In this document: positions 4,738 to 35,300 of the stretch, one piece after another
Layout of the letters: every line of letters begins with the position of its first letter
How positions within the stretch are numbered: position 1 is the stretch's first letter
From: Diphasiastrum complanatum
Lineage: Eukaryota; Streptophyta; Lycopodiopsida; Lycopodiales; Lycopodiaceae
Direction: 5' to 3'
Assembly (NCBI GenBank): GCA_029204225.1
Contig: CM055101.1
Location: 41,130,927 to 41,194,926, forward strand
Length of the DNA: 64,000 nt
Program-made: the position numbers and the translations under genes
The notes under the pieces: model-generated
Told to the model about the DNA's origin: nothing
Database searches by the model: none
The model's input: only the letters and a program-made list of their open reading frames with translations

Positions 4738-7700
4738 CTCTCTCTCAATGATCAACGTCTCTCTCTTTATTTTAGAGTTTACGAAACATACCTCCATGAT
4801 AGTATTACAAGTAAAGGCTTTTTACATAACCAGATCTAAGCCAAGTTTGGCTCTAAAAGTCTCAAACTTTTCTTTACTTAAAGCTTTCATAAATATATCA
4901 GCAACTTGTAACAACGTAGAACAATGTACAATACTTATATCTTCAGATTGTAGCTTCTCATGCACAAAGTGATATTTTACCTCAATATGTTTGCATGAAA
5001 GACAAGATTCTTAGCCAATTGTATTCCACTTTGACTGTCACAAAAAATAACAGTAGGATCAACCTGCTTCATGCCAATCTCACATAATAACTTATGTAGC
5101 CAAACAACTTCATGGGTAGCAGAACTTAACACTTTATATTCGACTTCTGTAAATGAAAGAGAAATAGTATCTTGCTTCTTGCTAGACCATGAAAAATAAC
5201 CACTACCAAAATTGAAGGCATAGCCTGTTGTTGACTTTCTATCATCTACACTTCCTGCCCAATCAGCGTCCACATAACCTTGCAACTTTGGTAAAACACT
5301 TTGCCTTTTGTACATTAGGCCAAGGTTAGGTGTACCTTTCACATACCTCAAAATCCTTTTCGCAGCTTTCCAATGGTCCATAGTGGGTGATGACATGAAT
5401 TGGCTAATCAAACTTACAGCATAGCAGATATCAGGATGTGTAGTCATAAGATATGTCAAACTCCCAACTAGCTGACGAAATAGAGTAGCGTCAACATGTG
5501 CACTATCATCACTACGAGATAATTTCTTACCAACTTCGCAAGGGGTGATGGAAGGTTTGCACTCTGTCATGTGAAATCTCTCCAATACCTCACGTACTTG
5601 TTTTGACATAACCCAATATCACTGCCAGTTTGCCATACTTCGACACCCAAGTAGTAGTGCATAAGATCTAAATCTGTCATCTCAAACTGCTTGCATAAGT
5701 TGGCTTTGATAGAACGAGCGAGGTTCTCATCATTGTCCGTGATAATGATATCATCAACATACAGTACAATCAAGGCAATGCTATCTTCGTTCATAAGAAC
5801 ATAAAGCTCCTATTGGCAAGTACCTTTCCCTAGGCTCTTGAATAAGTGGTGTCCTCTCATACTCGCCCTCTCGACTCTCATCTTCACGTGCATCATCATG
5901 TGGAGCATCTTCTTCATCTTCTTCTTCCAAAATTGTGGGAAGTCTTTTGATGCTTTCACCACTTGCATGGTCATAATCTTCATACCTATGCGTTTCATCA
6001 AAGATCACATCTTTGCTTATGTGAATCTTGTTCATTACAGGATCAAAACACCTGTACGCCTTCGTCCTCTCATCATAACCGATGAAAATACACTTGATTT
6101 CTTTGGCATCAAGTTTCTTTCGCTCTTCCTTTGGCACATGTACATAGGCCTTACATAGGCACATGTACATAGGCCTTACATCCAATGACACGAAACTTGT
6201 CGATTTTTGGCTTTATTCCTGTAAATGCTTCTTCGAGAGTCACATTTGAAACCGCACCTGTAGGGCTCCTGTTTTGCAAGAACGTTGCCGCACTGCACGC
6301 TTCCAACCAAAGTGAATCGGTCAAGCCCATTTGCTTCATCATGGAGTGTGTACTCTCCATAATAGCCCTGTTTTTTCTTTCAGCTACACCATTACTATAT
6401 GGCGTGTGTGACTGTGTGAATTGTCTTTTGATGCCATGTTCCTTGCAAAAGTCCTTAAAATCATCAGATTTATATTCGCCCCCTCTATCAGATCTTAGCA
6501 CTTTAATGTGTGCATCTAGTTGGTTCTCTACCAAAGTCTCGAACTCCTTGAAGTGAGCAAAAGCGTCAGATTTCTTCTTCAAGAAATAAATCCATGTCCT
6601 CCTAGAGTAATCATCTATGAAAGTCATAAAATAATATGCTTTCTCCAATGAACATGGTCTTCATTGGGCTGCATAGGTCGCTGTGAATAAGTTCCAGCGG
6701 TTTCTTAGCTCTTGCAGCTCCACCTTTCTTGAATGTCTCCTTGTGATGCTTTCCCATGACACATCCTTCACATATTGCACGATGATCATCCTGCAATGCT
6801 GGTAATCCTATTACCATTTTTAGCTTTGCCATAAATCTTAAGCTCCCATAGTTCAAGTGACCAAGTCTTCTGTGCCACAACTCATATTGAGATGCTGTTG
6901 AGATAGCCAAACCATATTCTCCTGGTTTTGCAGCATCCAGTTTATAAAGGCCACAATTACTATCTCTATAATCTTTTGCCACCACTTTATGGTTGTGGTT
7001 CATATCCCTCATAAGGCATCCATCCTTGACAAATTCAACCTTAAGATGTTGATTTTCCATTACTCCAACAAAAGCAAACTCTTTTTGAGTATAGGAACAT
7101 AAAGCACATTAGGGATATTCTTGATTTTACCATCAGAAAACTGCACAGGTACATTACCAACACCCTATATTTGGCATTCCTCCCCATTGGCTTGAGTGAC
7201 TTTATCCCCATCATGGATTGGTGAGAATTTCTCAAACCAATCACGTTTCCCAGTCATATGCCTTGTGGCGCCTGAATCTATGAACCATCTAGCACCATCA
7301 TCAACCTGGGATGCCAATGTCGATGAGAAAAAGCTTGTCTCGTCATCTTCTCCATCATCTTTGGCAATGTTGCCTTGTTGTTTCTCTTTTCCCGCCTTTA
7401 TGTCTGCTTTCTTCTTGTAACACTCGCGTGCCCAATGACCCAGTTTGTGGCAATAGTAACATTTGCATTTCTTCTTCTTTTTTGCCTTTGATAACGACTC
7501 TCCCTTGTCATCATCATTCTTGGATTTCTTGGGAATCCTCTTCCATCCTTTCTGCTTGCCTTTAGCAAGCAAGGCTTGATCTTCTTGTGGGGTTTGCCTT
7601 GACTTCACCACTTCGCAACGCTGCTCTTCCTGCAACATGATTCCGTGGAAGTCTTCAAAAGTAGGCAATCTCTCCCTTGAAGCAATGCCACTCACAAACA

Positions 7701-19700: not shown

Positions 19701-21993
19701 TGGTATCAGAGCCAAGTCTAAGAGTGATCTAATGATTAATAAATCTTGTGAAATCATTGACAATGAGTTGTTTTTAAGCTTTACTTGAGAGGGCGAGTTT
19801 AAGGACCATCAAGATCAATTTGTGGGCTGCTGATGTACTGTCCACACATGTGAAACCATACAACAACCTTCAAACTAACTTCCTTTAGTGTTTTTGATCC
19901 AAAAATGTGCATACATGTCCAAAATTCAAGGTTGCATTGTCTAAATCTAGGTTCAATCCATTGAATGCTAATGATCAAATAGTGATTTGAGTCATTGAAG
20001 CAATTCATTTTGAAGTGTTAGATCAGATTTATAAGGCTGATTTGTTCAGATCTTAAGTGTATGTGGAATATCAAACAAATTGTAGTAGAATCAATGTTTT
20101 GGAGAAGTAAATCTACTATACCATCAACCAAGTTGAACTAGGTTGATAGGGCCAAAAATAGAAGCTTCTTGGAAAGCTAGATATCTATCTTAGATCACTC
20201 TTTATCAAGAGATCTTTGTGCGTCTCATAGGCTTTCATTCACAATGTCATCCATGGGTGGATATTTGTTAGAATCTAGTGAGAAACTAACTTCCACAAAC
20301 TATTCCATTTCTGAGAATGGAATCACTACTTGTGATCCATTACCTCTTTGATATTTTTTTGGGAGTTGAGGAAGAGCCTCAAGCTACCCAAGAACAACTA
20401 AAATACAAGAAGAGGGCTAGATTAGCCTTACATTGCTTAAAGTTGAATGTAAGCAATGACCTCTTGAAGGAGGTGGCTTCTTGTGCCTCATCCAACGAGG
20501 CTTGGGATTCACTAAAGAACTTTTATGAATTCAATAACACTTCAAAAGTGCTTATGCTAAGAAACTTGATCTTGCAAGGCATGAGGGGAAGATGGACAAG
20601 AGTATGTCCTAAGAGTGAAATCTTTGAACAAAGAATTGGGATCTATAGGAGAGAAGATCCAAGACAATGAACTAGTACAAGTAATTTTGAATGGATGAGG
20701 TAATGAGTTCTCTAATATAGTTCAATCTTTTGCTATTCAAGACCAACTTCCATCAATTGATAAGTTTCATAATGCTCTTATGGCCGAGGAGAGTAGGATT
20801 TTACACCTCAAAACAAGAATGGGGTCTTTGTCACTACATAATGGTGATGAGAAAGCAAACTTCACATCAAAAGGCAAGAAGAAGAATCATCCATTAAAGA
20901 AGTTCCAAGGCAAGGAGGCCGAGGCAAAGGATAGAGGATCTACCTCCAAAGGGAAGCAAAAGAACAAAGCCAAGCTAAAGTGTTTCTTTTGTGGGAAGAA
21001 AGGACACTTTGCTTCTGAATGTTATAAGAAGAAGAATGCACAAGGGAGTGAAGATCAAGACAATCTTGCACAAGGGGAGGAGGAAGAGGATGGTTTCAAC
21101 ACATCCTTGATGGTAGCATCTACACCAAGATCAAGCCAAGAGACATGGTGGATTGATAGTGGGGCTAGCTCCCACATGTCATTCAACAAGCATTATTTTT
21201 CTACTCTACTTTCTTGTAATGATTCTAAGAAGTCAATCTACACTGCTAGTGATCAAGAATGTAATATAGATGGCATAGAATCTATTCCATTATGCTTAGG
21301 ATCATCTAAGAGAATAGATCTTGATAATGTTTTGTATGTTCCAACCATTACAAAAAACTTGCTTAGTGTTGGACAATGGACTAGATGTACATTTCAAGAA
21401 TGGAGTGTGTTCCATCTTGAAAAGTGATAAGTGCATAGCTAGTGGCATTAAGCAAGGAAGGATTTTTAAGTTGGATGCTAATGTGGCCATTAAGAATATG
21501 GTTAGGGAGGAGTTGACTCAAGTGGAGCTTTGGCACAAAAGATTAGGCCATCCTAATCTTCAAGCAATGGAATCCATGGCATCAAAGGAGCTAGCTCTCG
21601 GCCTACCAAAATATTTCAAGAAGTGTGGCAAAGTGTGTGAGGCACGTGGCCTTTCAAAGTCACACAAGACTTCCTACAAGAGATCTTTGACAAGATCTAC
21701 CTCACCTTTGAATCTTATTCATTCAAATGTACATGATTTTTCTCATGAAAGTAATGGAGGTGCCTTAATGTATGTGACTTTCATAGATGATTGTACTAGA
21801 TTCACTTGGATTGAATTATTGTCTAAGAAAAGCCTTGTATATGAAGCTTTTGTAAAGTTTAAGTCTCTAGTGGAAAAGCAACTTAGTTCTTGCATTAAGG
21901 TTCTAAGATGCGATAATGGGGGAGAATATATCTCCAACAAGATGAGAGACTTTTGTGAGATCAATGGCATTAAGAGAGAGCTCACTTGTTCTT
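18861..21993 (+). mobile_element. Ty1/copia element D, cut off by element X
   Basis: Plus-strand copia. The 5' LTR is 18,861-19,700 (TGTCA..TGACA) and the primer-binding site TGGTATCAGAGCC is 19,701-19,713. Gag starts about 20,243 (GGYLLESSEKLTSTNY; RLALHCLKLNVSNDLL). The zinc knuckle CFFCGKKGHFASECYKKK is near 20,980, the protease WWIDSGASSHMSF near 21,150, and the pre-integrase LWHKRLGHPNLQAMESM near 21,530. The integrase core (TFIDDCTRFTWIELL, VLRCDNGGEYIS) runs to the junction at 21,993, where the sequence changes abruptly to element X. RT, RNase H and the 3' LTR are not found in the window. A few breaks. Confidence 0.85.
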
Positions 21994-21999
21994 TTTTTA

Positions 22000-22890
22000 T
22001 GAATCAATGTACATTCTTGATACAAAAGGAGGTTTTGGACAAATAGTCCCAATTTCATTACTTAGTTTTGGAAGTGATGAATGGGTTGCTCTAGATGCTG
22101 CAGTTTCAGAATCATTTCGTTGCAAGCTATATAATGATGTAAAAAAATTCATTAAAGATAAGCACGAGATAAAAAATAGTCAGATTGAGTTGGTTTATTT
22201 CTCTGAATATATTTGTAAAAAAAAAATTCAAGTGTCAATGTACACAAAACCCCAATCATGTTTGTATGCAAAAATCTATCAAATAGTCTATTATCTGAAC
22301 TTATGGATGACGGCTGGGACAAAGGATCAGATAGAAAAATAGAATGTATAATTAAAATGTCCTCCATAAGCTTTTGTTATCAAATTTAAAAACAAATGTT
22401 GAGCTTATGCTTCCATTATCAAAGATGGAAAAAAAATAAAGGTAAATGGGTGCCACTCGATCAAGACTTGGAAGCTAGTGGACATTCAAAATGAAAAAAT
22501 ATCGAAATTATATACAATGATGCAGTTTTGACATGTGTTGAGGTGGAAGAGGATTGGAGTCTAAATTACATCAAGCGGGAACTATTGCTCCTACAAGATG
22601 ACATACTTTCAGACTTCAGATTCATTTTCAAATGTAAACTCGTAAGTAATTATAAACACTCGATTATTTATGAATAGTTTCTATCAAAACTTTCTCATAC
22701 ATTCTCTATACTAATTGTAACTCACTTTCTATTAGTTTTATGCAAGCACGTAAAAGACATGAGCTCAAGATCAAATGCAGAGATATTGGCGAAACAATCC
22801 AACTTATGGAAGAACATTGAGATTTACTATCAGCAAATACATGTCAATCATCATGTCTTTCAATCAATCTAGAAAATTGCATTGCAGTAT
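22000..22890 (+). pseudogene. Element X unknown gene A
   Basis: A plus-strand coding-like stretch with motifs ISLLSFGSDEWVALDAAV and LYNDVKKFIKDKHEIKNSQ. After a gap come EEDWSLNYIKRELLLLQDD and, past an intron with a strong GTAAGT donor at about 22,639, HELKIKCRDIGETIQLMEEH ending near 22,827. It starts directly at the junction with copia D, so its 5' part may be missing. I do not recognise the family. It converges on the protease region of the minus-strand gene. Broken, a few breaks. Confidence 0.45.
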
Positions 22891-23407
22891 CACACTATGG
22901 ACACAACTTGATTGTAAAAGTCTATGTTGATATCAATAAAAATCCCATAAACGAGTTGTTTACATGTAAGATTGTATTTTTTTTTTTATGTATCTCTATT
23001 TACAAATGAATTCCTATTCAGTAAGTTTTTCTATATTTTCAATATCAGTATTAGGAACTGATAAGGCAACGGACCTCTCTCCTATAGTTTCGCCTTCCTC
23101 TGTATTGGGAAGGACTTCTATGTCATTTTGATCATATATATATTATATCTGCATCATGAGCAATCTGAAAGGTTGTTAAGGTAGGAGCAGCTTGTTTTTT
23201 CGGGCCCTCGATTTCAGACGTCACGCTTGCACCGTTATGCACATAAGTTCTAATCATTTCTTGCTGAAATCTATATACATCGTCGAGAGTGTATGGCTCA
23301 AGAGTTAATTGTCATCACAAAACACGTGAATAAGCAAATTACAAACAATGATAGTAAAAAAACAAGAATCAGAATGAAAGCAACTACAAATGAACAAAAT
23401 ATTACCT

Positions 23408-24425
23408 TTTCAATATCTACATCGACTTGTAAATTATACCACTCAAAAAAGAGCTTTGTATTGTATAGGACGAACCATGCACAACTAAAAGCATCCCTTT
23501 GTTGTACATACTGCATATATTAAACGAAAATTAGTAATATCATGACAGAAAATTTATTTATGCTATGATGATAGATTTAAACTAAAAAAAATACATGCAT
23601 ATCAGAGATAAATTGTATATACCTTGAGATATTTAATGGTTATCTCTCCAATTGAGGTCGCCATTGTCGGTATTTTTCGAACGACATCAGGAAGTAGAGA
23701 ATCAAATTCTTTATATGTATTATTAGTTGAGTTTATTTTTTCACATAGAAAATTTGATACTCCCTCCTTATTTATCTTTACAGAAAGAATGTTCAAGCTC
23801 CAATGCCGACTGCAATAATCAAAATAAAAATTAGAATCCATTTGAATAGGAGTAATCATCCAAATTAAAGCAACAAGAACATATTAGCAATCCTTATTTA
23901 TTCTCATATGGAATCAAATAAAATTTCGCCACTTGACTGCATTCGATGAAATATACAACCCTTTCAAAATTGGCGTCTTTTGCCTTCACCGCTCCCATAA
24001 ACAATGGACTGACAACAAAAACTACACCCTGAGAATCAGAACTAATACTATGCTGCAAAAAGCTTTCGCCGGCTTCTACAATAACATCTATTATCTCTGA
24101 TATTTTTTCTTGCAACTTTGCACAAATTTGGGACCTAATCTATAGCTTTTATTTGAATCTGGAAGAAAGAAATCAAAGTAGTTGCCGAACTGATCAATTT
24201 TATCAGCTAAGTAAGCCTCGTATTGGTATAATGGTCATAATCAAAATAAACCTGATTAGGATTGTATGGAATTCTGACAAAAAGATTATGAACAAGGAGA
24301 GAAAGAGATGTAGACACAATATTTATAGATTTTTCAGTTATTTTATCAAGCTCCTCTTGGGTTATCATCACTTTTGGTGAAGAAACCTTTTGAGGAGCTG
24401 GACAAATAACAGGAGGAGAGAATGA
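23408..24425 (-). pseudogene. Element X C48/Ulp1-like cysteine protease region
   Basis: Minus strand. The order of motifs fits the C48 (Ulp1/SENP) fold: FYLIPYEN, then RHWSLNILSV with the candidate catalytic His at 23,803-23,805, then VQQRDAFSCAWFVL, where Gln and Cys (23,481-23,483) match the oxyanion Gln and nucleophile of the Q....DCG.FVL motif. Gly after Cys is replaced by Ala. An intron with GT donor and AG acceptor is visible at about 23,520-23,622, another acceptor lies before RHW, and a GT donor lies at about 23,405. Upstream, KVMITQEELDKITEKS links back toward the H3-like region in the same orientation. C48 proteases are common cargo of plant Mutator and CACTA transposons and also occur in virus-like elements. 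Broken, a few breaks. Confidence 0.65.
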
Positions 24426-25013
24426 TTATGGGTCTGAATCAGATTCTCCAACATCTGATTCATAGCTCAAAAAAATGCGGGGTCTCTTGCCAGGGATAAC
24501 TCTAGGAGGAAGGGAAGCAACTGGCCTTTGAGATCCAGTTTTTTTTGGGACAGCATGCTTCATTTTCCTCCGTGAGATAGTTGGCAAGTCAGTTCTATTT
24601 AGAGGCAGGTCTCTAGAGGTGCTGGCGTTATCCACATGAAGATTTGAATAACGTTTCCGAAGTTGTTTGAGAATAACAAAATCTTTAGACATGATGGTAA
24701 CACGCTTACCATGCACGGCCAAAATACAAGAATCATTAAAAAACTGGGATATAAAGTCTTCTAGAGCACCCTGTAAGGCCTGCATGGCTGTGACAAAACA
24801 AACATCAAGCCCAAGTGACAGGGTGACATTCCTAACAGATCGGCCAAAAGGAGCTCTAGGGATCAACAATTCGGTTGATCTCTAGAGTCTTCTTATCTCC
24901 CTCAGCCAGACTTGTTTTCTTTCACATCTACGGCCAGTACCAAGGGAAATACGGACATGGGATGGCTGTATAGAGGTAATGGCACGGGCAGTGGATTTCG
25001 TCCTAGCCATCAT
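24426..25013 (-). pseudogene. Element X histone H3-like domain
   Basis: Minus strand; MARTK begins at 25,010, with one extra Met codon before it. The tail reads MARTKSTARAIT, keeping Arg2, Thr3, Lys4 and Arg8 of histone H3, but the Lys9-Ser10 place is Ala-Ile. The tail is about 13 residues shorter than canonical H3. The fold follows with clear landmarks: LREIRRL, RSTELLIPRAPFGR (H3 KSTELLIRKLPFQR), ALQGALEDFISQFFNDS (helix 2), VHGKRVTIMSKD (H3 IHAKRVTIMPKD). It then has a basic, Ser/Pro-rich C-terminal extension of about 70 residues ending in acidic SYESDVGESDSDP, absent from H3. Helix 2 is not lengthened at loop 1 as in centromeric H3. Whether it was ever incorporated in chromatin is unknown. 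Few breaks. Confidence 0.8.
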
Positions 25014-25321
25014 TCTCAGAATCAAAAGAAATAAATTTAAAAAAAAAAAGTCTGTGATTTGAATATCCAAACCAAGCGCAGAGAATGAAAGCAAAAAAAT
25101 TTCCAAAAAAAAAGACTAAATATTGATTTCGAGCACAAGATTACAAGAGAAACAAAGTAATAGGAAGATCCTCACTCGAAAGCGATATTGGGTTTACAAC
25201 GGTATCGGTCTTGAGCGTAGGGAGTGATGGCGGACGAAGAAGGAACAGAGAGCGCACTTAAGAGCGATATTTGGAGCGAAAAATGAAAAGTTTGCGAGAA
25301 AAAATGAAAATTTCAAGGGGG

Positions 25322-25585
25322 TTTATATAGAAAATTTTCACACGTGTGAAAAAAAATGGCTTCAAACACGTGGCGAAATCTAACTGGTCCACATATATTT
25401 TCCGTATAGATCATTATGACTCAATAATGAGGTCACGTGGTGTAGGAAATGTGCGCGAATCATATTACGACACATGGCATTTTGCACATGACAAATGTCA
25501 GATCAATCATTCTCTTGACGACAATATATTTCTGACAAATAACACTACGACATGTGTCTCCCAGTGCAAATTTTTTTTATAAATA
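25322..25585. promoter_or_regulatory. Bidirectional promoter of element X
   Basis: A minus-strand TATA box (TATATAAA, plus 25,322-25,329) faces the H3-like gene and a plus-strand TATA box (TATAAATA, 25,578-25,585) faces gene C. Each lies about 312-320 bp from its start codon (25,010 and 25,899). Between them are three CACGTG G-boxes: an 18-bp perfect palindrome TTTTCACACGTGTGAAAA (25,335-25,352), one at 25,367-25,372 and one at 25,434-25,439. Promoter activity is inferred. Confidence 0.55.
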
Positions 25586-25898
25586 GGTCATTTTTGGCAC
25601 GGATTTTCATGTAAATTTTTTGATTTCTCCGTCGCCGGATATCGATTTCAAGCGCACACTTTCTTCTGTTTATGATCTATTTACATACTTGCATTTGGAT
25701 CCGATACTGCCTGCTCTGATTGCTTTCAAGCGCGTCTTACGTTTGTTTTCTTGTTTGTTCTTTGTACTCGCGCTCGGATCTGATACTCGATTTTCTGATA
25801 TCTCTTTTGAGCGCATAGGTCCTTGAGGTTCTGATCTAACCTGCATTATGTGCCTGAGAGCGATATTCAAAATTTTGCTTCTATATTTTTTTGTTGAA

Positions 25899-26792
25899 AT
25901 GTCTAATTTCGATTTTAGTCTGTTGTCTTTTAATCATGAATTTGATATTAGTGATAATATAGAGTATTTCAAATCTCTTTTTTCTTCTTTTATTTTTATT
26001 CTTCTTTCTATTACTCAGGGTCCTAGTGTGGAAACATTTTCTGAAATTTATCTCAGATTTAAGTCTCTATTCAGTACTCCCTTGTTTAGATCTCAGAATA
26101 AGAACATGATTCATTATCAGGACTTGGTGGCACTCGAAAAACATATCTATAAAGCTAAGCTTGACAGAATGTTCACCAAGTTACATAATAATTGTCCAAT
26201 TCAAAATAAAAAATGTAGATTTGTAGAGTTTCAGTTTGCATTTGTTTTTTTTCTTTTGTTAAATATTTCTGACGATTCGGAAGCTGGTTCTTCCAGTGGT
26301 AAAAAATCTGAAAAGTTGAAGACTATAAATATAGAAACTTTTTTAATTGATACGAGTGTTAGTTTAAATAATTGTACAGATTTTAATTCTGCATGAAATA
26401 GGACATCGTTTATTGGCCCTAGAACTACCAACACCCTTTCTCCTTATGATAAATCTCTTATCACATTGCCTACTTATAGTATAGATAATAATTCATTTTT
26501 GACACTATCAAATATATCGAATCTTTTTTATTTCACAAAGGCCGAGACTCTTTGTATTTTGAACAAGGAGCTTCATGAATTTTCGAATATAATCGATTAT
26601 GATGTTGATGATCTTCTCCCTGGTGTTGACGATGTAAATAATGATGAGTTTTATTCAGGAAAATATTGCATGAAAATGGCCATGGAGGAAATGCGCAATA
26701 AAGAAGATGATCTACCTTCTGAAGAAGAGTTTCTCAGAATTCAAAGTCAGCTTGATTTTCCAAATCAACTGTCTATTCACCAACTATATTAA
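25899..26792 (+). pseudogene. Element X unknown gene C
   Basis: Plus strand, starting MSNFDFSLLSFNHEFD downstream of a TATA box. The first part is hydrophobic and Ser/Phe-rich. An intron acceptor-like TTTCTATTACTCAG occurs near 26,018, and a second acceptor-like run near 26,232. Later segments include VALEKHIYKAKLDRMFTKLH, a Ser/Lys linker (SDDSEAGSSSGKKSEK), FYFTKAETLCILNKELHEF, an acidic stretch (DYDVDDLLPGVDDVNNDEF) and MAMEEMRNKEDDLPSEEEF. I do not recognise the family. Gene end is near 26,790, where it meets the convergent transposase-like region. Broken, few breaks. Confidence 0.5.
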
Positions 26793-26799
26793 GATGATC

Positions 26800-27740
26800 A
26801 TATGCTAAGACTTCCGCTATTTTTTGCAAAGAATGTTGCATGATGTCGTAATATGTGCTGCATGTCATAAAAACATAATCTAAATCAGTACCAAAAGTAT
26901 GTAAATTAATTGCACATATTTGTCTATAGTAGTGTAACATCGAAATCTTACCATATAATGTGTTATATGATCTACACCCCATGCACTTCGAACTGCATCC
27001 ACAAATTCACTAGTTGTTTTTTGTATCATTTGTACATCAGTATTTGAAAAATTTCACCATGTTGTCTAATTTTTTCCAAACTTCTACTTTGTGTATACGG
27101 GTAGAACCTTATTCTTCGAAATCTTGAGTTGTAGCTATAATCTCTTTTCAATCCGAGTATTGAATCTTGGATTGTTTGCCAGAATAATTTGATAAAAATC
27201 TTCGAGCTCAGGATCCTCCAATGCTCGGCTTGCATGGAATATTTCTTGTTTTATTTGATAGCTTGTCATCCTTTTTTATTTTAACGTGGCCTTTATGTAA
27301 GCTTGTTTTAGACAACACATCCTCTAATCTGGAAATAGCTTCCTTCGCAAATGCCTCTGGCTCGGAATTTCATGCAAACAAGATGTGAAGATATATTATT
27401 TTTTCTATTATACGCACCTCTGCATGCAATGTACAGATATGAACATTCTGAAGAGGAATCGGTGGTACAGGTTTTCAATTAGGATCTTCTCGATCTCTTG
27501 ATATTTCTGTACTCCTTGTCATGTCTTCATGCTGTACAAACAAGGGTTTAGAGTTAGCACCATGGGATATATTTTAATGTCTTCAGATCTCCTGCTAAAT
27601 GCCATTCTATGTTAAAAGTGCCAATTCCAGGAATATCGAGTGGAACTCTCTCCATGTGATTTTTTATGGTGGCAGAATATGACGTTCTATTAAATATCCA
27701 TGAGAGAATGTCATGGTCTTCTTTCATCACCTATAAGAGA
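26800..27740 (-). pseudogene. Element X transposase-like region
   Basis: Minus strand. The first exon-like block (after an acceptor TTTTCTCTTATAG at about 27,733) has HDILSWIFNRTSYSATIKN and GTFNIEWHLAGDLKTL. A later block has LEDPELEDFYQIILANNP, and the last has TTSEFVDAVRSAWGVDHITHYM, joined by a GT..AG intron (about 26,870-26,952) to HILRHHATFF. The GDLK.L and THYM.ILR.H phrases resemble large uncharacterised transposase-like proteins found in plants and animals, but I cannot assign a superfamily. 5' exons beyond 27,760 were not seen. Broken, several breaks. Confidence 0.45.
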
Positions 27741-31196: not shown

Positions 31197-31765
31197 ACGT
31201 GTTGGAGAAAAGGGGACCAATGGGGGCCCGGGGCCACTTCAGCATACACTGCCAAAAGCCGCCCATCATTCCCCACCCTCGAGGACAAAAGACGAACCCC
31301 CCTTTTTTCTCTCTTTCGATCCATCGATTGATGGATGTCTTGTTTTCTGCTCGTGCGATACATAGATGAAGATGATGATGATGCTGTTTTTGTTTTTGTT
31401 GAAGAGGATGATTTCAGAACATGGCCTTCTAACATGTGCATGAATGGAATGGATCTTGTCCTCCTCCTTGTTCTTCATTGTGCTGTGACTGCTTAATTTG
31501 CTTCCTTCTTCAATGTGCGCCCGGTGATGTGATGGGGTGATCCATGCAACAATTTACCTCCTTCAGCTGTAAACTCCACTGCTGGAGCTCTTCTCGATGT
31601 GGGTTTTGAATGGTGTCTCTGGCCGGCTTGGTTTAGGAATTGGGTTCTTCTACTTTTGCATGAAAGGGCATTGTAGCAATTGAGCCGGCTGCTGTCCTTA
31701 AGCTGATACAGTGTATTTCCACTTTTTCTTATGTGTTGGTTCTGATTCAGCAAGAGGTATCAAGT

Positions 31766-32354
31766 ATGCCCTTCAATTGGAACAAATCAATCTCCAAAAA
31801 GACCAAGCAAGGGTGTAAAGACAGCGATGTAGTTCAGTCATGGCTGAGACCCTCGGGGGAGGGAGGATGGAGGCCTCACCACAGGGTTGAGGGTGGATCT
31901 AGCTGGGACTCAACAAGGCACAGCCAAGAGATGGCTCCTGACATGAGGTCAAGCAGCCCCAGATTGGGTTCAAGTCTGCAGTCTCTGTCAACTCCAGTCA
32001 GTAGAACTCCCAGCTTTACAGATCCTTGTAAAGGGCAGCCTCTGCCTCTGCCCTGCTTCCCTCCTGGGGCCTTGGCTAGGGAAGCTCTGCAACCGCCTGA
32101 TGGTGAATTTCCGAGACAGTTTGTGTCGCTCCCTCTACCTTCGCCGAATCAGCTGCATTTCAGAGCAGAAGCAGTGGAGCTGGATGGAGCTACTTCAGGT
32201 TATGGATCGGGATCGACATCCAGCGTTAGTTCTCTAAGTAGTGCTGATGTGCCTGATCAATGGACTGGTCGTGGAGTTACTCGTGTATCGGGCTTTATAC
32301 CTGTGACCGAAGGGGAGATGCTTAATCATGGTCATCCCAAAAATTCAACGTATG
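31766..32354 (+). CDS. MAPKKK exon 1 (N-terminal regulatory region)
   Basis: Starts at the ATG of MPFNWNKS. An in-frame ATG 33 bases upstream is less likely because the family begins MP.WW-like. A pyrimidine-rich run ending TTCTGATTCAG at 31,750 suggests a 5' UTR intron just before. The encoded region is Ser/Pro/Gly-rich and includes [12 protein letters not shown] and a Ser-rich tract ([18 protein letters not shown]). The likely donor is TATG|GTAAAA after 32,354. This leaves one base of a codon, which does not match the phase of the best acceptor at 42,009, so a small exon or another splice site may lie between. Confidence 0.88.
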
Positions 32355-35300
32355 GTAAAACAATTTCGGAATACTTGTTTTCGCAAACTTGATCTTGTCT
32401 TACTAGTATGTATAGAAATTTTTTTCCTTCAGATACCTTTTTGTCCTTAATTAGAAGAAAAACAACATGCAGAGAGCATGATATGGACAACGGTACTGTA
32501 AAATATATCAATTTCCATAGAGAACGAGGCTTATACAAGCTGGGCCTAAGCTGAATGTAACGAAGGTCAAGATTAGGCTAAGCTTAGATAAGAACTAATC
32601 TTCAAGTAATCAACTGACCAAAGGAGGCGGCGTCATGCCCATCTACAGATGACTTGGAGGTCCAACGAATTGGGCTAGGAGCCTGAGAAGATAAAGTAAG
32701 CGTATGTCAAGTCGATATTATAGAGACTAAGTGACCTTATCCTCCAACTAATGGGGCCCAAGAAGCCTAATTACATGATCTTCTAACAGATAATAACACA
32801 TGAAGTGCCAGAGATTGGTGCTCAATTGGGGCCAAATGGGTATATAACTCTTCCGTCTCAAAAAGACAGTGTACTCAATGTCACTATAAGAAAGATGAGA
32901 TGAAGAAAAAATAGGATTTTCCACAAAACTGCATATACTGTCAAGGCTATTGCTAAATGTATACGCCAAAGGGACCATTGAGTACATTTACGATAAAAGC
33001 CGCAAATTGTATAGGATGAAGTAAAAGCCCCAAAAATAGGTAGTATGTTTATGGACCATGGATCATGCAATTATTGATGGACCAAGAGAACCAAAAGAAT
33101 CCATCATTAAGGAGAACTCTACTGCATACACTGACATACCATGCCGACTAGATGGACCAAGCATGCAACACAAAGACATCAACAGGACCATAAGAATAAG
33201 GCATTCAAAAGGAATTGCTTCGATATTCCGTGCAAACCGAATATACCATTAGTGCCACTTGAACTTAGAAGTAGACGACACAAACATGGAGAAACTCAAG
33301 CCAATCATATAGATCAGGAGGTACCGGATAGTGGTAGTGAGAAATAATTTTGAAGATAAGCACACAAGTCCAAGCTAGTGTCGTGGACCATGCATACCTT
33401 ATAGGAGGAAGAGCTCACTCCAAGTATATCTCTAATGTAGAAACCGATTATGCTCAGTGGAATGGTGACGTAGATAACTCGTAGCTTAGAAATGGCTACA
33501 TGTTTAAGAAGAGTACTGGTTGTAGTCATGTAGACCCTAAGTGACAACTCATCACATAAGTAGACCTCACAATATGAAAGGATAGCTCTTTCTGGAACTC
33601 TCATATTGACCAAGAAGATGTTGCAGCACTGTTGGAACACTCATGTAAAAGAACCAAAAGAGCAACTTGTAGGATTTAATGTTGCAAGAATCAAAAGATC
33701 GGCCAGATGAGCAAGTGGATGTACCTCAACTAGGCATGAATGTGCCTGACGACACTGATCTTGTGCTTGTATACATACAACAAAGTGTGACTGCTCTGGT
33801 TGCACCTCATTGTATTGATCCCATAACTCATGTATCATCCATGGAACAATAAAGAATGCATTCCACAACTAGCTCTTCTATGGCCATTTCTAAACTATAT
33901 GTGTTCACTTGTTAGGCATAGATCATTGTAACACATGATAAGGTAGGTGGCTCATCATGGATGATGTGCATGGATCCTAAAGGATTGATGTCGAGTTCAA
34001 ATGCTATTGTTGTTGATAGTGTCCACAGTGGTGATAGGAACCTAAAAGATCATAATTACCAAAGAAACTAGGATAACTGCCACAAGACGTTATGTACCAG
34101 GCTCTAGCAAAGAAACTCTGACAAGACTTAGAAAAATCATGGAGCAGCAATAGTGCAGAGATAAAGATCAAATATCAACGTATTGTTGATAAAGAAAGAT
34201 GTTTAATAGTCATGTTGTGCCTGTATTGTAAACTCATTTTGATCAACTATTAAGTAGAAACCAGTAAGCATCCTATAAAAGATTATAAGTAATCACGACT
34301 GCTGCATATGTTGTATCACCTGCGTCCTTCTTTGTCCCTGCCCCCCACCCACAACCCGCTCCTCCTATTGGGAGGGCGCACTATTTTCCCTCCAAATCCT
34401 TTTCCCTCCCTTTTTTTGTATCCTCCATTTGATTCAGGGAGAGGGTATAAGTAGGGCAGCATTGTATTCCTTTATTCAGTTTATGATGATTGCTCCTCTT
34501 TAGCCTCCTTAAGCATTCTCTTTCTGCTTTCTAGCTTAAGTCCTGCTTTCTAGCATAGCTAGTGAATCTTAGCTTGTAACTTGGTATCAGAGCACTTTTT
34601 GGTGGAGGCTGTTCAGCGCCCTGCTAACCCATCACTTTGGTCGTTTTTTTGGGCAGATTTTGATTGTTTTTGCATTTGGTAGCTACTGCCCAGCGCTCTA
34701 CTACCTCATCATTTTTGACACTTTTCGTCACCGATTTGCTGTCCATTTTTTATATTGATTCGAGGCTGTCCAGCGTCCTACTACCGTCTCATTTTCAGCG
34801 GTAACCCATCACTTTCGTTGATTTTTTCGGCAGATTTTCATTGTTTTTGCAGATTTGGTAGCTATTGCCCAGCGCCCTACTACCTCATCATTTTCAACAC
34901 TTTTCGTCACCGATTTGCTGTCCATTTTTTATATTGATTGGAGGCTGTCCAGCGCCCTACTACCGTCTCATTTTCAGCGGTTCTTTTCACCGTTTCGGCT
35001 ATTGATTGGAGGCTGTTCGGCGCCTTACTTCCGCACCTTTTTTCAGCCTATTCTTCAGCATATTGTGGATCCTGGTAGTTGCTGCCCAATGCCCTATTAT
35101 CTTCAGCTTTTACTTCTCTTTGTTGGCACTACCGAGTGAACGACGGATCAGCACCCACCCAGGTATTGCTTGCGCCCTTTTTGCACCTACTTGCTGTCTT
35201 TTCTGCTCACATACTGCTCTTTTCCAGCCCCCTATTCCCGTTCATATTTGTTGCCTCACACCCTCCTCTTTCCATTTTTCCATTTTGTTAGAAACCTTCT

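Follow-up and report, generated by a model that had tools for sequence, protein, structure and literature searches.

The 64,000-nucleotide stretch of the Diphasiastrum complanatum genome analysed here (the window) contains a degenerate member of a DNA transposon lineage with terminal inverted repeats (TIRs) that encodes its own variant of histone H3. The window copy is a relative of family A, in which the H3 variant is made as a fusion with a C48/Ulp1-like protease module and the fusion gene has as neighbours a transposase gene plus two or three further genes of the element. Taken as a whole, a reading in which this family A relative has its own H3, an H3–C48 fusion and a net anti-silencing effect seems to us, judging from sequence, somewhat probable.

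A broken fusion gene in the window

Window positions 25013–23406 on the minus strand hold a broken copy of a single intron-containing gene, in which an H3 fold is followed by a linker and a C48/Ulp1-like module (Table 1). A sequence-only reading of the window had described an H3 fold on this strand in a mobile-element context, within a span (23408–25013) that agrees with the extent of the gene; its MARTK, RSTELLI and VHGKRVTIM landmarks are all found in the translation, and the mobile element is a TIR DNA transposon. The C48-like region that it placed 3′ of the H3 fold is also present, with its His, Gln and Cys, but the two are parts of one gene and not separate regions. Its suggestions that such a pair could bind or process chromatin proteins where the element inserts, or protect element DNA, are conjectural.

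The translation of 25013–24429 starts MMARTKSTAR and runs on into an H3 fold that a single in-frame stop interrupts. Reading through this stop (codon 44, ~24882–24884), positions 24429–25013 match Pfam PF00125 (Histone) with an E-value of 1.4e-20, and 24426–24881 alone, without read-through, matches at 8e-15. The best 60 of 182 PDB matches are canonical H3 types (best E 6.9e-17), and chance resemblance is excluded by these Pfam and PDB matches. The histone assignment lies above the Pfam cut-off, with H3 as the best relative, both in the window and in L023, an open family A copy elsewhere in the genome. The window copy is a pseudogene, broken by in-frame stops and by two or more changes of frame.

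Table 1. Features of the decayed element in the window
Feature	Position	Strand	Basis and remarks
Decayed element, approximate extent	21974..27730	.	Left side adjoins Copia fragment
Left ORF of element, function unassigned, decayed	21992..22650	+	tblastn with L020 left ORF, E 3.8e-58
C48 exon with QQRDAFSC (Gln, Cys)	23406..23510	-	L023 protein 389-425 match, 57% identity, E 3.8e-10
C48 exon with His-Trp (HWSLN)	23623..23809	-	tgcag precedes, gt follows; L023 protein 330-376 match, E 5.3e-7
C48-like module, first exon part, end ...FYLIPYENK	23886..24139	-	Colinear with L023 protein
Lys/Arg-rich linker joining H3 and C48 parts	24230..24653	-	Translation; stop near 24424, frame changes near 24220 and 24120
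H3 histone-fold domain, decayed	24654..24914	-	Pfam Histone 1.4e-20; PDB H3 ~1e-16, query residues ~29-120; stop ~24882-24884
N-terminal MARTKSTAR, resembles H3 residues 1-8; K9 position is Ala	24984..25010	-	Translation
plusA ORF, divergent from H3 gene, one in-frame stop	25899..26789	+	tblastn with L019 plusA, E 2.5e-22 and 6.2e-16; no Pfam
Transposase remnant, decayed	26949..27730	-	tblastn: L019 transposase 64-69% identity, E 7.3e-68, 27730-27163; L013 to 26949

Splice signals at the C48 exon-like blocks of the window are plausible. In L023, exons at 4785–5767, 5875–6061 and 6173–6277 are joined by GT–AG introns into a 425-aa protein with no stop, and both of its domains lie above the Pfam cut-off (Histone 8.4e-28; Peptidase_C48 2.5e-9, 37.7 bits vs. 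20.7); the C48 part alone gives 5.3e-10, and the best 60 of 191 PDB matches for L023 are canonical H3 types. The H3 and C48 parts are one fusion gene, not neighbours. The Pfam check proposed for the two regions of the window succeeded for the histone part and, in L023, for the C48 part; the window C48 part alone, searched as a composite with X at breaks, reaches Peptidase_C48 at E 0.044, below the cut-off. Both L023 and the window have the His-Trp and the Gln, followed after six residues by the Cys; for the triad Asp, the alignment gives no clear conservation in either. Among five family A copies in which the C48 exons were read, only L023 is open, with stops in L019, L020, L022 and L078, and L022 has Tyr in place of the Cys. 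Given the Asp and the single open copy, protease activity is only putative.

No full-length H3–C48 protein was found among 4,707 protein-database candidates with the composite (X at breaks) as query, and the H3 part of the window recovered seven H3-like proteins of 107–169 aa. One of them (P0006; longest contig 35 kb) is a 169-aa H3-like protein with an extended C-terminus and the STELLIPRAPF seen in the transposon H3s. No viral relatives of the window H3 or of the transposase of L013, a family B locus, were found in IMG/VR, and a search there with the transposase alignment A1 gave 13 pattern matches, none of them confirmed.

Recurrence in the host genome and structure of the transposon

A histone search of the 1.74-Gb host genome, in which the best 150 of 6,325 first-look candidates were scored, has among these 150 places 13 host-type H3 places at ~164 bits, 134 at 95–110 bits and three at 83–84 bits. 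Two of the three lowest, when read, are split host H3 genes. The 134 intermediate places were taken as transposon-like, a part of them having been inspected, and several carry stops. Twenty, picked mainly for open frames, were examined as 10-kb loci (L009–L028). Five belong to the window's kind, family A (L018, L019, L020, L022, and L023), each with an H3 and a C48 match, while 14 belong to family B, with an H3 and no C48 match at 1e-4. Because family B has H3 without a C48 match, H3 is the wider feature, and the fusion is dispensable for the lineage. The remaining locus, L011, carries a window-like copy and a third, more divergent H3, which may on the basis of this single locus represent a separate family C. 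Across residues 45–134, identity to host H3 is 48/90 for A, 48/90 for B, 42/90 for C, and 38/89 for the window.

A search of the same genome with the C48 part (9,902 candidates, best 150 scored) gave 232 matches. When the 134 transposon-like H3 places were compared with the 150 C48 places listed, at least 21 pairs were found within 3 kb, against 0.017 expected. All 21 listed pairs lie on the same strand with the C48 part 212–658 bp downstream, and no other arrangement occurs among the places listed. The C48 matches in these pairs lie mostly within the module's first exon (query 1–120), and a few reach the catalytic exons (e.g., C5:39415540 and C8:55613909). The sequence-only reading had looked to recurrent same-orientation pairs in repeats for its support, and these were recovered. 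Neither outcome that it had named as refuting arose: the two regions do occur together elsewhere, and the H3-like part, rather than matching a host H3 gene uniquely, recurs in TIR-bearing repeats.

The elements are approximately 8–9 kb long. A family A element (L032 + L023) measures 8,681 bp with exact 35-bp inverted repeats, and a family B element (L014 + L031) 7,946 bp with exact 37-bp repeats, these TIR lengths coming from the two copies measured; both begin with CATTAG. Exact TIR words (28- and 32-mers) occur at 1,324 places for A and 653 for B, duplicates counted, while reversed-pattern controls gave 0. Flanking direct repeats at 12 end pairs, nine of them paired by assumption from their spacing, are 0 bp in five, 1 bp in four, 2 bp in one and 3 bp in two. 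A short (1.1 kb) family B element lies inside a family A transposase gene at L018:1084–2173, and the intact empty site in L019 indicates that 0 bp were duplicated. Of 100 listed family A TIR places (all on C1), 28 fall within 1.8 Mb (64.9–66.7 Mb). The 20 element ends fetched from these 28 (L049–L068; C1:64.97–66.68 Mb) have flanks that are 92–100% alike pairwise, in both orientations; the cluster is one insertion amplified by large segmental or palindromic duplication. Centromere targeting, considered on account of the cluster, was rejected since these 20 flanks are duplicates of each other.

Families A and B share a gene set consisting of a left ORF, the H3 gene, plusA or plusB with ORF2, and the transposase, and differ in the orientation of the middle genes. 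At L011:4521–5200, a transposon-type H3 with an exact MARTKQTAR and a different linker adjoins plusB-like and ORF2-like genes. Four copies were chosen by their TIRs rather than by H3, from the nine spacing-paired ends; the left ORF, ORF2, plusA or plusB, and transposase are present in all four, H3 in three (partial in L079), and the C48 catalytic exons in one of two A copies. C48 was not found in either of the two B copies so chosen, and the TIR-bounded B copy L080 has the left ORF, ORF2, plusB and transposase with no H3. The other element proteins matched nothing above cut-off in Pfam and NCBIfam. The window keeps the element gene order, with the left ORF at 21992–22650, the H3–C48 gene at 25010–23406, plusA at 25902–26759 and the transposase at 27730–26949, and a pattern scan recognised no TIR at the ends of its element. 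A Copia gag and integrase fragment, identified by eye from ORFs at 20290–22046 (+), stops where the H3 element starts. Further along the window, an ORF at 31664–32392 (+), preceded by a CT-rich stretch, resembles the start of a YODA-type MAPKKK gene.

Transposase affinities, selection and descent of H3

Of 703 candidates, 79 are related to the L013 transposase core at E ≤ 1, including a hypothetical protein of the fern Ceratopteris richardii (P0071), and the 34 that were aligned share invariant WH-x3-D-x-K, CxxC and VH-x-C-x-LHA motifs. These motifs and the TIR context suggest a D-D-E type transposase with a zinc-binding insert. Searches with the transposase gave only sub-cut-off matches in Pfam and NCBIfam and none in PDB. 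The core and C-terminal exon matched no Pfam hAT model at E ≤ 1 or E ≤ 10, which is an absence of Pfam match only, and no hAT-like 8-bp target-site duplication was seen (a repeat >3 bp in 0 of 12 end pairs; 0 bp at the nested site). No Mutator-like (VANDAL/KIU) domain was matched in Pfam by the transposase parts or their relatives. CACTA/EnSpm elements have CACTA termini and a 3-bp duplication; the termini here are CATTAG, and a 3-bp repeat is found in two of the 12 pairs and not in the other 10. Zero-bp duplication together with TIRs, as in Spy/PHIS elements, is found here, and we know of no histone in Spy or other Harbinger-related transposons. Duplications of 0, 2 or 3 bp are stated for Harbinger relatives (PMC12730594), compared with 0 bp at the nested site here, but no relation of the transposase to these or to PHIS-type elements was found by Pfam. 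For KDZ elements (Zisupton, Kyakuja, Dileera) the same source gives a 7–8 bp duplication, and none of the 12 end pairs has a repeat longer than 3 bp.

The H3 fold is under purifying selection between two A subfamilies, with dN/dS of 0.08–0.16 in all six pairs (89 codons); closer A pairs gave 0.16–0.50 (four pairs). Family B, pooled over 28 pairs from 8 of its 14 loci (L016, a near copy of L013, and five loci missed by the search pattern being omitted), gave 0.41. Values for the first C48 exon part are 0.15–0.31 in four of four pairs, and those for the linker 0.37 and 0.49 in two pairs with dS >0.2, while two uninformative pairs exceed 2. The plusA and ORF2 genes gave 0.15–0.50, the left ORF 0.53–0.59, and a transposase segment 0.74 and 1.24 at a dS of ~0.05. 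Selection is therefore not uniform, considering the pooled B value and those of the transposase.

In a tree of 15 fold sequences, which excludes CENH3 and fungal H3L and whose long branches make placement unsure, host and database H3s group together (95/94; 94/89 with P0006), with A, B, and C outside, and the window groups with A (98/97). The position of the transposon H3s outside the host and database group (94/89) indicates that the capture is old. Residues H113, R116 and D123 and the KRVT loop, which we take to have roles in H3–H3 and DNA contact, are kept in the four transposon H3s compared. The tail is a different matter: lysines at aligned positions 9, 14, 18, 23, 27, and 36 are not kept in L023 and the window, the tail alignment being loose, and neither has a canonical modifiable H3 N-terminal tail. 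ARTKQTAR is exact in 9 of 10 B copies with a start found and in L011, and reads ARTKSTAR in the window, with differing sequence downstream. In family B, MSEE stands before the motif, which may therefore not form a free N-terminus, and the MDRRKQTRR start of L022 and L023 is a poorer mimic of the H3 tail. In A, loop 1 of the fold exceeds that of H3 by one residue; it has no insertion in B and is one residue shorter in the window. A longer loop 1 is a CENH3-like trait.

Possible roles and relation to known systems

We propose that the element-made H3-like protein would pair with host H4 and enter, or compete for, nucleosomes. It retains the histone fold and would lack the tail lysines K9 and K27 that take silencing marks, such that nucleosomes containing it would be unable to take these marks and heterochromatin on element copies would be weakened. 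The fused C48-like module may strip SUMO from silencing factors, or bind SUMO as a pseudoprotease. Taken together, these actions would counter silencing, in a way comparable to VANC/KIU of Arabidopsis VANDAL elements and to TET/JBP of fungal transposons. We infer every step of this mechanism that goes beyond the sequence itself. The broader proposal, that an undescribed plant TIR lineage, unrelated to fungal hAT, has kept H3 as a selected core gene in at least two families, with a C48 fusion in one branch, we hold tentatively, at slightly less than an even chance.

Other roles for the H3 gene can be considered. It might serve as a transposition cofactor, an H3-fold protein that, alone or together with host H4, would bend the ends of the element or wrap them, or else package the excised DNA, and so aid transposase assembly, while C48 processes or de-sumoylates the transposase and silencing is not the target. 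Its place in a gene set shared with the transposase in two families and the constraint on the fold are compatible with this, but ARTKQTAR is kept before differing linkers, which would be needless for DNA wrapping alone, and H3 is dispensable in cis, to judge by short copies like the 1.1 kb B pair, with supply in trans being possible; we regard this role as rather unlikely, with an appreciable chance all the same. The H3 fold could instead be incorporated at, or recognise, particular chromatin (e.g., centromeric) and steer insertion there. The C1 cluster and the longer loop 1 of family A would fit such targeting, but the 20 cluster flanks mark one insertion duplicated, the loop is not extended in B and is shortened by a residue in the window copy, and the 60 best PDB matches of L023 are canonical H3 types, making it very improbable.

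Two further readings deny the H3 part any function in the element. In passive gene capture, a host H3 gene and a C48 gene would have been transduplicated and carried along, as for the hAT-borne H3 of Pseudocercospora, where 784 H3-like sequences lie in 471 hAT elements, all RIP-inactivated (PMC6710886). Many copies in the host genome are indeed broken. This is nonetheless distinctly unlikely in view of the low dN/dS of the fold, the identical gene set across families whose transposases are ~47% identical, the age implied by the position of the transposon H3s in the tree, and the introns within the fusion gene, which preserve its frame. The H3 homology by itself would also be seen if transposon debris happened to adjoin a host H3 gene, or a processed pseudogene of one, but the low identity to host H3 and the recurrence in TIR-bearing repeats, which already refutes this account, leave it practically no probability.

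The preferred reading, an element-encoded H3 variant with an anti-silencing effect, joins systems already known in part. Transposons that carry an H3 gene have been described before, among the fungal hAT elements of Pyrenophora tritici-repentis, Pseudocercospora, Cercospora, and Sphaerulina (PMC3538342 and PMC6710886). In P. tritici-repentis, a ~5.6-kb hAT present in 10 copies, with 16 copies of a 2.3-kb form, carries, besides its transposase and a central ORF, the H3-like gene H3L, which has insertions in its tail and corresponds to neither H3 nor CenH3; it is represented by ESTs, and its effect was left undetermined (PMC3538342). Similar events are described for five other genomes in the work on Pseudocercospora fijiensis (PMC6710886). 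The present elements resemble these in being TIR transposons amplified in the genome, with a transposase, an extra ORF, and a tail-altered H3-like gene between the TIRs. They differ in their plant host, the H3–C48 fusion of family A, constraint across a deep family divergence, a transposase with no Pfam match and the lack of a duplication, where 8 bp is stated for the hAT of C. zeae-maydis. No mention of C48 in the fungal elements was found in the available parts of the two papers. An unrelated fungal hAT with a tail-altered H3-like gene and ESTs indicates that independent elements have taken H3, while the P. fijiensis copies, which are dead relics (PMC6710886), show that carrying H3 need not mean using it.

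Among other accessory proteins, the KIU genes of Arabidopsis VANDAL MULEs are VANC genes with an Ulp1 domain in an anti-silencing setting (PMC13317346). Like the present fusion, these are accessory proteins with an Ulp1/C48 domain in a plant DNA transposon, but the element is Mutator-like and no histone fold is reported there. TET/JBP-bearing fungal transposons (KDZ, hAT, Harbinger, EnSpm and others) likewise keep a captured epigenetic factor across families (PMC12730594), but the factor is a DNA-methylation enzyme rather than a histone and the transposases are other ones. The literature searched contains no plant transposon pairing H3 with C48, in agreement with the sequence-only reading, which knew of no such described family. 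Viral histones, such as bracovirus H4 and those of marseilleviruses, are parasite-encoded core-histone relatives with altered tails; their carriers are viruses, however, and we know of no C48 fusion among them.

Transposons with epigenetic enzymes, with anti-silencing regulators and, in fungi, with an H3-like gene are therefore already known; as far as our searches go, the plant host, unrelated transposase, long-term constraint on H3, and H3–C48 fusion are new. Whether a transposon-borne histone acts is a question for which the fungal systems have offered either an undetermined effect (Pyrenophora) or dead copies (Pseudocercospora). With a constrained fold, two families in a plant, an intact fusion and exact end repeats that number many hundreds, single proteins now suffice to ask whether a parasite can replace or jam the nucleosomes of its host. 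If the broader proposal is true, unrelated transposons have recruited H3 independently, a tail-altered nucleosome component would be a recurrent anti-silencing weapon, and chromatin proteins would gain a novel type in the H3–C48 fusion. On a practical level, transposon copies can overwhelm the count of histone genes in genomes of this kind.
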